Assembly: GCF_014066305.1 (NCBI RefSeq)
Contig: NW_023501068.1
Location: 109,501-173,500, forward strand
Length of the DNA: 64,000 nt
Direction: 5' to 3'
DNA from: Letharia columbiana
Lineage: Eukaryota > Ascomycota > Lecanoromycetes > Lecanorales > Parmeliaceae
Shown here: piece after piece, positions 52,296 to 54,076 of the stretch
How positions within the stretch are numbered: position 1 is the first letter of the stretch
Layout of the letters: the number at the start of each line of letters is the position of its first letter
Made by a program: the position numbers and the translations under genes
Notes under the pieces: model-generated
Databases searched by the model: none
Seen by the model: the letters and a program-made list of their open reading frames with translations, nothing else
What the model was told of the DNA's origin: nothing

Positions 52296-53040
52296 CATGC
52301 ATGATGATGGCTTCTAACTTTGTGTGCATTAGTGTGGCCTCGCAACGTACAATGTTAACATGGTTTAGCTTGCGAAGTGAGCGTTCAAGCGACTGAAGTA
52401 TAGCGCATACCATGCTACTGTAGTAAAGTGTGAATGGATCTTATTATTCCTTCGAGACCATGGGTCTCACATCCTCTCCAAGGGTAGTGTTGTAGGTTGT
52501 CTCGCTGTTCGCCGAAACCATCGTAGCATTGCCAGCATGTGACCGGTAGACAGAAACCGTACCTCATCATCTATTATATGTTCACATATCAGCGGCCGTC
52601 GAAGAAGTACGAATTATGGAACAATGAGGGTGTTACAATATAATCTCAGTCTTTGCCTTTAAACATCATGCACAACCAGCGCCAAGCGTAAAGCAAGAGT
52701 GTATTACGTGGCTGTGCTTTTCGGACTACCAGAAGCTGTGTTGCATCTTCATATGATGAGGGAAGGAGGCTTGAACAGTAGGGTGCACGGACCTTTGATG
52801 AACCTGATGCCTCATAAGACAATCCATTGAGTGGAAGAATTCGCTGTATGAGCCATGGCGCGATGTTAAGCAAGATAAAAGCCTATAAAAGGAGGCTGTA
52901 ATCTTCGAAAGACCTGAAAATGTGATAGCCATCTCGTGCTGGTAGGAACAGAAGAATCTGCGTTGAGACAATCTTCGAGATTGAACGATTGAATACCTGG
53001 TGAGAAATATAGTCAAATAGTGATAACTTTCTCATCCAAT
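52296..53040. other. intergenic upstream of the split tRNA gene
   Basis: 745 bp. A TATAAAA at 52884-52890 is the only element of note. No open frame shows a domain. Confidence 0.55.
52884..52890 (+). promoter_or_regulatory. TATA-like element upstream of the split tRNA-Lys gene
   Basis: TATAAAA lies about 150 bp before the mature 5' end of the tRNA. It could serve TFIIIB or a Pol II promoter if the split A box is weak; this is a sequence match only. Confidence 0.3.
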
Positions 53041-53329
53041 GCCCGGTTAGGTAAGGAAAAACCAATCGGCAGTTTCAATTCCTTCACTGACTTGGTGCTC
53101 TAGCTCAATCGTAAGAAACATCTCGATCAATCTTCGTAATTTTCACTAATAGCAAAAAAAAGGGTAGAGCGTGTACGTACTAATAATCTAATATGCGAAG
53201 TAAGACAATATCTAACATGAGATAGGTGACTCTTAATCACAAGGTATATACCGACCCAACTATTAAAAGCAAACAAATTCTAACAAGTTCCACAATCAAA
53301 GGTTGTGGGTTCGACCCCCACATCGGGCT
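53041..53329 (+). tRNA. tRNA-Lys(CUU) gene split into five exons by four GT-AG introns
   Basis: Exons are 53041-53050, 53104-53110, 53163-53172, 53226-53243 and 53302-53329 (10+7+10+18+28 = 73 nt). Joined, they form a full cloverleaf. The acceptor GCCCGGT pairs with ATCGGGC (one G-U), the D stem GCTC with GAGC, the anticodon stem TGTGA with TCACA around loop CTCTTAA (anticodon CTT, lysine), and the T stem GTGGG with CCCAC around TTCGACC; the discriminator is T. U8, G18G19, U33, A37 and the T-loop bases are all in place. Introns fall after tRNA nt 10, 17, 27 and 45, none at 37/38. They are 53, 52, 53 and 58 bp, with donors GTAAGG, GTAAGA, GTACGT and GTATAT, branch-like motifs CTGAC, CTAAT, CTAAC and CTAAC, and 3' AGs at 53103, 53162, 53225 and 53301. 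They look spliceosomal. Confidence 0.9.
53308..53318 (+). promoter_or_regulatory. Pol III B box (internal promoter) of the split tRNA gene
   Basis: GGTTCGACCCC matches the B-box consensus and lies whole within exon 5, so TFIIIC could still bind. The matching A box (TAG, CTCAATC, GG) is divided among three exons. Confidence 0.8.
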
Positions 53330-54076
53330 CATTTTTTTGTGTTTGTTTTGCCATTTCTTTTCGTTAGTTGTGAGTCATGCTCATGTTCTTTTCCCACTCG
53401 ATGGGCTATGCACGCAAGCACTCGAGATTAATTGGCCTCATAGTATCCAGCCAGACCTCTTCTCTAATAGTCACATTGTCTGGTGGTACGCATGCCTATC
53501 ACAGAAGATATGTCCCAACATACAGGTCGTCACCGCATCATGGGAAGCTCGCACAAAGCGGTCCTCGTGATGACGGTTTTAGAAGTGGCTTAAGCGTATT
53601 CTTGACCTACCCATCGGAATCGCCAGCCGAGTGAGGATTGAGCTCGAGCTGGGATGATTTGAGTTGGTGGTCTTGACTAAAGGAAAGAAGAAAAATTCGC
53701 CAATCGGGGATGATATTTGTCGCGGCTAAAAACGCCAAGAGTGCCAAGGTGCCAAGAGTATAGCCGCCGCTACCGCTGTACCTGACCGCCAAAATTGTAG
53801 ACTTTGAAGTAGGAACCGTGTTTGCTCCAACAATTTCAATCATTGAACCCATATAATCTGAATACCTCCCAAACACACGCTCTACTTCAACCATAGGCCT
53901 CTAAAGTCCTCCATATCCTGCAATAGAAGCCCAACAGATCCAAGAATCTCCAACGACTGATTCTAAAGTACATTTGTGACTCGAGCGCATACTCGCATTT
54001 TGGCAAAGAAGCGCATGTAACATCATTCGGGTTCTTTTGGCTCCCACAATCTCCAAGTCTAGGTCCTGTAGTGTTC
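53330..54076. other. intergenic after the tRNA terminator
   Basis: About 750 bp to the eIF4E start. Only short frames are present; nothing is recognised. Confidence 0.55.
53332..53338 (+). terminator. Pol III terminator, T7
   Basis: A run of seven T begins 3 nt after the discriminator base, where a Pol III terminator is expected. It supports Pol III transcription of the whole interrupted gene. No earlier run of four or more T occurs in the introns except TTTT at 53140-53143. Confidence 0.8.

Follow-up and report, generated by a model that had tools for sequence, protein, structure and literature searches.

The introns of nuclear tRNA genes are taught as being of a single kind, placed between positions 37 and 38 and cut by a protein endonuclease. 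Ectopic spliceosomal introns were reportedly described by Bhattacharya et al. in 2000 from the nuclear rDNA of lichen-forming ascomycetes.

The lichen rDNA spliceosomal introns are termed ectopic in sections of one paper, where yeast is also described as removing a 57-bp lichen spliceosomal intron from a Pol I rRNA (PMC8527467). Such introns, for example in Cladonia grayi, are like those reported here in that they are short, have GT-AG ends and lie in a structural RNA outside the Pol II system, but their host is a large multi-copy Pol I rRNA, whereas the present hosts are small Pol III tRNAs with up to four introns and with 7-nt exons. In a Cladonia paper, as far as its text was available, tRNA is mentioned once, in an organelle-genome table (PMC6652019). 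The U6 RNA of S. pombe has an mRNA-type intron for which reverse splicing is proposed as the origin in sections of PMC10484740. Fungal U6 is alike in that a short Pol III transcript is interrupted by a spliceosomal intron, and the U6 candidate of Letharia columbiana has two, but U6 is a component of the spliceosome and, since tRNAs are not, a direct route by reverse splicing is less obvious for them.

Several introns within one nuclear tRNA gene, including introns of the D and T arms, are known from Cyanidioschyzon merolae and from nucleomorphs. According to sections of PMC4090602, the multi-intron nuclear tRNA genes of C. merolae carry the bulge-helix-bulge and are endonuclease substrates, and the string "spliceosom" is absent from that text as available. 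The introns of L. columbiana differ from these in lacking the motif and in having the full set of mRNA-type signals. Canonical eukaryotic introns at 37/38 are present in the same L. columbiana genes as well, yet the four introns of tRNA-Lys(CUU) are at other sites and of another type.

The original prediction knew of no nuclear tRNA gene with four GT-AG introns. None of the literature matches listed, which were open-access papers, preprints aside, represented by their titles and the openings of their abstracts, describes such introns in a tRNA gene. On the gene structures set out below, the known ectopic spliceosomal introns of lichen rRNA and fungal U6 appear to be extended to tRNA, the initiator included. 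The locus described here is very probably a working nuclear tRNA-Lys(CUU) gene with four U2-type spliceosomal introns, and one case of a genome-wide condition.

The tRNA-Lys(CUU) locus

In the window (the whole 64,000-nt stretch of L. columbiana DNA that was analysed), a tRNA-Lys(CUU) gene lies at positions 53041–53329 of the forward strand as five exons and four introns, and the exons join into a 73-mer (Table 1). The original prediction had five fragments forming a 73-nt tRNA with all helices paired and all diagnostic bases in place, and this is borne out: the joined 73-mer forms all 21 stem pairs, 20 as Watson-Crick pairs, and has an enumerator score of 32.0, with T8, A14, G18, G19, A21, T33 and the TTCGA T-loop all present after joining, and ARAGORN calls it as tRNA-Lys(ctt). 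The GT and AG ends, the branch-like motifs and the lengths of 52–58 bp that had been predicted are reproduced to the base, as are the four intron sites. The branch-motif A is 13, 13, 10, and 18 nt from the 3' splice site in introns 1 to 4, respectively. There is no intron at 37/38.

Table 1. Features of the tRNA-Lys(CUU) locus, in positions of the window
Feature	Positions	Strand	Description
TATA-like AATATA	53006..53011	+	5/6 match, 35 bp upstream of the tRNA
Exon 1	53041..53050	+	10 nt, tRNA-Lys(CUU) positions 1-10
Intron 1	53051..53103	+	53 bp, GTAAGG..CTGAC..TAG, at 10/11
Exon 2	53104..53110	+	7 nt, positions 11-17
Intron 2	53111..53162	+	52 bp, GTAAGA..CTAAT..AAG, at 17/18
Exon 3	53163..53172	+	10 nt, positions 18-27
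Intron 3	53173..53225	+	53 bp, GTACGT..CTAAC..TAG, at 27/28
Exon 4	53226..53243	+	18 nt, positions 28-45, holds anticodon CTT
Intron 4	53244..53301	+	58 bp, GTATAT..CTAAC..AAG, at 45/46
Exon 5	53302..53329	+	28 nt, positions 46-73 (T arm and 3' acceptor strand)
B box GGTTCGACCCC	53308..53318	+	intact in exon 5, internal Pol III promoter
T7 run	53332..53338	+	Pol III terminator-like, two bases past the tRNA end

The unspliced stretch gives no ARAGORN calls, with or without the intron option, and a cmscan search of the window returned no tRNA at gathering scores. The parse was made with an enumerator that starts at a T arm and works upstream, keeping only candidates whose stems and diagnostic bases are those of a tRNA and permitting from zero to five GT..AG introns anywhere. 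In its loose setting, where introns are 40–90 bp and neither donor nor branch strength is demanded, the locus has one solution only, the five-exon parse. On the opposite strand 180 bp downstream of the tRNA, an snR42-like match at 53508–53665 scores 23.4 bits against a gathering score of 61 and is likely to be due to chance.

That the gene is no more than tRNA-like fragments joined by a permissive search has a negligible probability. The loosened enumerator does produce chance parses: the Lys 3' tail placed on 10,000 random backgrounds from the window gave 20, the addition of a free 37/38 intron gave 21 in 24,000 (best score 25.25, up to 19 pairs), and serine-type tails gave 24 in 3,000 (best score 25.25). 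The 20 parses with the Lys tail have, however, 17–19 pairs, at most 15 of them Watson-Crick, and a best score of 21.0, where the real gene has 21, 20, and 32.0, and the split genes of the genome at large, with 19–21 pairs and scores from 27.75 (Gln-CTG) to 33.25, outscore every null parse. When donor and branch strength were demanded there were no parses in 20,000 backgrounds with the Lys tail and none in 60,000 with 12 tRNA tails, 0 of 80,000 combined. In one run no parse was obtained at any of 65 loci that hold no counted tRNA, and under the settings of the genome survey two of them were parsed, these being L051 (score 22.75, a weak parse) and L053 (28.25, uncounted, with a 37/38 intron only). 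The original assessment that a chance origin is remote agrees with the loose null, which reaches 19 pairs at most, and with the absence of parses in the 20,000 backgrounds where splice signals were demanded. In our view, chance is excluded for tRNA-Lys(CUU), tRNA-Asn, and the initiator tRNA-Met.

tRNA genes across the genome

The assembly surveyed is 52.2 Mb in 161 contigs. The SRP54 reading frame of the window is, at the rounding of the search tool, 100% identical over its 495 residues to a protein of Letharia lupina P0121, with other, unnamed proteins at up to 99% and Alectoria at 98%. An Rfam tRNA search of it scored only 63 of 1723 candidates, with 39 of the 56 matches on contigs C94 and C110, and a genome pattern search for a T arm followed by a T run was therefore used, and 103 stretches were retrieved and parsed. 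For a second T-arm pattern, 100 of 135 places were among the matches listed, and part of these were retrieved. The survey pattern is blind to introns within the T arm and to more distant terminators.

In all, 32 nuclear tRNA genes were located, 16 with GT-AG introns, 11 with a 37/38 intron alone, and five uninterrupted. This count leaves aside three loci that look organellar or odd (L012, L022, and L025), a pair of Leu-like genes in L018, the 37/38 parse in L053, the weak parse in L051, L094, and a second copy of Ser-CGA in L065. There are four GT-AG introns in Lys-CUU, three each in the initiator tRNA-Met and Asn, two each in Ile-AAU and Gln-CUG, and one each in Lys-UUU, Met-CAU (which has a 37/38 intron besides), Tyr, Thr-AGU, Thr-CGU, Arg-UCU, Arg-CCU, Arg-CCG, Ser-AGA, Ser-GCU, and Ser-CGA. 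In the case of Gln-CUG (anticodon CTG), the two GT-AG introns are likely, their boundaries are unsure and exon 2 gives a 12-nt D-loop; the gene is counted among the 16 split genes and is omitted from the 23 characterised introns. Of the 14 GT-AG genes that the enumerator parsed, 11 hold in addition a canonical 37/38 intron, of 7–30 nt. In the tRNA-Tyr gene (L067), a 5-nt exon separates a GT-AG intron at 32/33 from an intron of the other type, 15 nt long, at 37/38. Ser-CGA is found at L054 and L065 (G000:C53 and C81) with an identical tRNA and GT-AG intron, probably through segmental duplication.

The initiator tRNA-Met gene (L118, 1375–1602; G000:C10:345717-345944, forward strand) is the only initiator found, and it has three GT-AG introns. 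Its layout of exons and introns is 7, 50, 15, 49, 20, 57, and 30 nt, which places the introns at 7/8, 23/24, and 43/44, and CTAAC is present in all three. It was located by its anticodon stem-loop, for which the sole other exact match in the genome is not a tRNA, and its boundaries were placed by hand and then verified against the DNA. What the original prediction had proposed for a single gene thus extends across the genome, to the initiator tRNA as well.

Split tRNA genes escape ordinary gene finders. Without introns ARAGORN calls none of the 16, while with its intron option it calls nine, none with a correctly placed intron and four with a different anticodon, and misses seven, tRNA-Lys(CUU) and the initiator among them. 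A search of the genome DNA with concatenated yeast tRNAs gave no matches, this kind of cross-species DNA search being too insensitive to indicate absence.

An alternative to a working gene is that the tRNA-Lys(CUU) locus is a pseudogene, or a dead copy into which introns have moved, with the function served by intact genes outside the assembly. The T-arm and T-run survey of this 161-contig draft located no gene for Asp, Phe, Trp, Cys, Val-AAC, Glu-CTC, and some further isotypes, so that the tRNA inventory is incomplete, which leaves some room for such genes. Set against this, the 21 pairs are kept over five exons without one being broken, there is no pseudogene-type decay of the stems or diagnostic bases, and the sole initiator tRNA found is likewise split. 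An intact set of Lys-CTT genes elsewhere, which the original prediction had named among the things that would count against it, was searched for genome-wide and not found: the joined 73-mer matched only exons 4 and 5 of its own locus, with no second copy. A pattern running from the anticodon loop to the T loop, with either lysine anticodon, occurs at 19 places in the genome. Six of these are on C94 and C110, which hold dense clusters of mitochondrial-type tRNA, one is a mitochondrial-like copy on C2, and the other 12 were judged not to be tRNA, six after retrieval and six on the matched letters alone. Five of the six retrieved places belong to an AT-rich repeat, the sixth is unrelated, and ARAGORN found no tRNA in the three of the six on which it was run. 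The Lys-UUU gene (L064) is interrupted twice, by a GT-AG intron of 49 bp and by one of 12 nt at 37/38. As only one Lys-CTT locus was matched and Lys-UUU is itself split, no uninterrupted nuclear lysine tRNA gene of either anticodon was found in the 52.2-Mb assembly by the 73-mer and pattern searches. That this is a dead copy is accordingly very unlikely.

Two dispersed repeats were met in these searches. The AT-rich one, CTCTTAA..GTTCGATTC (L111, L112, L114, L115, L116), mimics the lysine pattern from anticodon to T arm and is not a tRNA. The other has a B-box-like GGTTCGATTCCTAATGGCGCTGGTACAATGG, for example at G000:C2:179682-179727, and is perhaps a tRNA-derived short element.

Intron signals and the splicing machinery

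Intron statistics were compiled for 23 introns from 15 split genes. All are 49–58 bp but for one of 83 bp. GT and AG were conditions of the search and the ranking of parses favoured good donors, and with this in mind the donors begin GTA in 18 introns, have G at +5 in 20 and T at +6 in 18, while a pyrimidine is at -3 of the acceptor (YAG) in 21. GTRNG donors are found in 17 of the 23 against a background of 12.7%. CTRAY is present in 20, with the A 9–18 nt from the 3' end, compared with 11.6% of random length-matched GT..AG segments; the three introns without it are in Thr-CGT, Arg-TCT, and Ser-AGA. Proto-splice sites have G at exon -1 as a feature, and this base is G in 14 of the 23.

Since the enumerator ranks partly by splice signals, the choice of parse was repeated on structure alone for 14 genes, a weak signal threshold being retained for the Ser genes. 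Nine keep a single top parse, the same as before, and in four the parse ties with others, while for Ile-AAU an alternative parse scores slightly higher. Eight class I genes have one top parse on structure alone that agrees with the first choice, and of their 13 introns 12 contain CTRAY.

The introns of protein-coding genes in the window offer a comparison, three of four having been placed with the proteins of relatives. These are 56 bp in SRP54, with CTGAC 12 nt from the end, 50 bp in a glucosidase, with CTGAC 10 nt from the end, and 82 bp in a monooxygenase, without CTRAY. The original prediction had likened the size of the tRNA introns to that of introns in neighbouring genes, which fits these three. 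When the intron-like motifs of the window were tallied by length, there was only a weak excess at 55–64 bp, and the tally was not used as evidence. A family of introners, in which one mobile intron sequence would have been copied, was considered for 26 introns of tRNA, U6, and SRP54. The best pairwise scores are 26 and 25, and those of five end-preserving shuffles peak at 20–24, and with no clear common sequence beyond the signals, the introns are not an evident recent family.

It might instead be the tRNA splicing endonuclease that removes these introns, at non-canonical sites, as in Cyanidioschyzon merolae and the Crenarchaeota. Multi-intron nuclear tRNAs with introns beyond 37/38 do exist in C. 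merolae and are held to be cut by the endonuclease in sections of PMC4090602, and ordinary 37/38 introns are present in the L. columbiana genome too. The bulge-helix-bulge, thought in sections of that paper to be the determinant at non-canonical sites, is complete in none of the 23 GT-AG introns, two of which reach three of the four central pairs. As none of the 11 short 37/38 introns used as a control passes this test either, failing it bears only on the strict form of the motif and does not by itself exclude the endonuclease. The reading is rejected mainly because the introns have mRNA-type signals: donor, branch, and length within 40–90 bp were not demanded in the search and still match those of mRNA introns. 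Removal by the endonuclease is thus highly improbable, and a real tRNA with four spliceosomal-type introns, as originally predicted, is the best supported reading, with similar introns in 16 of 32 genes. The anatomy is strongly spliceosomal, the locus is real, and the condition is genome-wide; from these features we infer the splicing itself.

Some observations sit less easily with spliceosomal removal. The exons of 7 nt in Lys and 5 nt in Tyr are very short, and splicing would have to be efficient for a small transcript to lose all of its four introns. The weak points in the data are the alternative parse of Ile-AAU, the four tied genes, and the three of 23 introns without CTRAY. Splicing would most likely be by intron definition, and because each intron of about 50 bp would be a complete unit, the exons of 7–10 nt would need no recognition. 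In genes that also hold a 37/38 intron, the spliceosome would presumably act before the tRNA splicing endonuclease, since the GT-AG introns at 28/29 in Asn and 32/33 in Tyr hide the endonuclease substrate until they are removed.

Transcription, origin and consequences

RNA polymerase III would be expected to transcribe the tRNA-Lys(CUU) gene from the B box, assigned on what we take to be the B-box consensus, and to stop at the T7 run. The A box, which we take to be tRNA region 8–19, is not contiguous, as introns 1 and 2 split it, and for this reason the ordinary tRNA promoter should be weakened. The TATA-like element upstream perhaps aids Pol III, easing the loss of a contiguous A box, though its 5-of-6 match is at a level reached by 23% of random positions. 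A perfect TATAWW is upstream of 17 of the 32 nuclear tRNA genes, compared with 1.6% of random positions, and is found at 7 of the 16 split genes and 10 of the 16 others. This and the retention of T runs argue further against the dead copy. The initiator, Thr-AGU, and Ser-AGA genes were found without a terminator search and yet have T runs close by. With transcription of this kind, the spliceosome would remove all four introns of tRNA-Lys(CUU), and the joined RNA would then fold, be processed at its ends and be charged.

A U6 candidate (L088, ~1430–1650; G000:C17, match 919231–919323, forward strand) also has two GT-AG introns. Read with the landmarks that we take to mark U6 (the ACAGAGA box), one intron of 53 bp is inside the box, as ACAG/AGA, and the other of 57 bp is near the 3' end; the unsplit Rfam match is 41.2 bits, below the gathering score of 44. 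Stretches of 18S rDNA at L091 (G000:C129, cut at the contig end) and L092 (G000:C49, more divergent) carry insertions of ~200 and ~400 nt, which were not used as evidence. For the tRNA introns, reverse splicing into these RNAs would be the likeliest origin.

If these genes are spliced in this way, tRNA would be the third class of structural RNA, beside rRNA and U6, to provide substrates for the spliceosome. The genes would be a test case for whether spliceosomes can handle Pol III transcripts with exons of 5–10 nt. They may also be a natural record of intron insertion sites in RNAs of known structure, which bears on intron gain.

For L. columbiana, the gene structures suggest, as the probable though less secure consequence, that protein synthesis as a whole is dependent upon the spliceosome, in that the Pol III transcripts of the initiator and both lysine tRNAs could yield these tRNAs only through the spliceosome, and many tRNAs would be handled by two unrelated machines one after the other, first the spliceosome and then the tRNA endonuclease. 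The spliceosome would then be essential for the initiation of translation in this species. If the initiator and lysine tRNAs do need it, the supply of tRNA would be coupled to splicing capacity, and a supply tied to splicing in this way may act as a brake on growth, as has been proposed for the rDNA introns of lichens.
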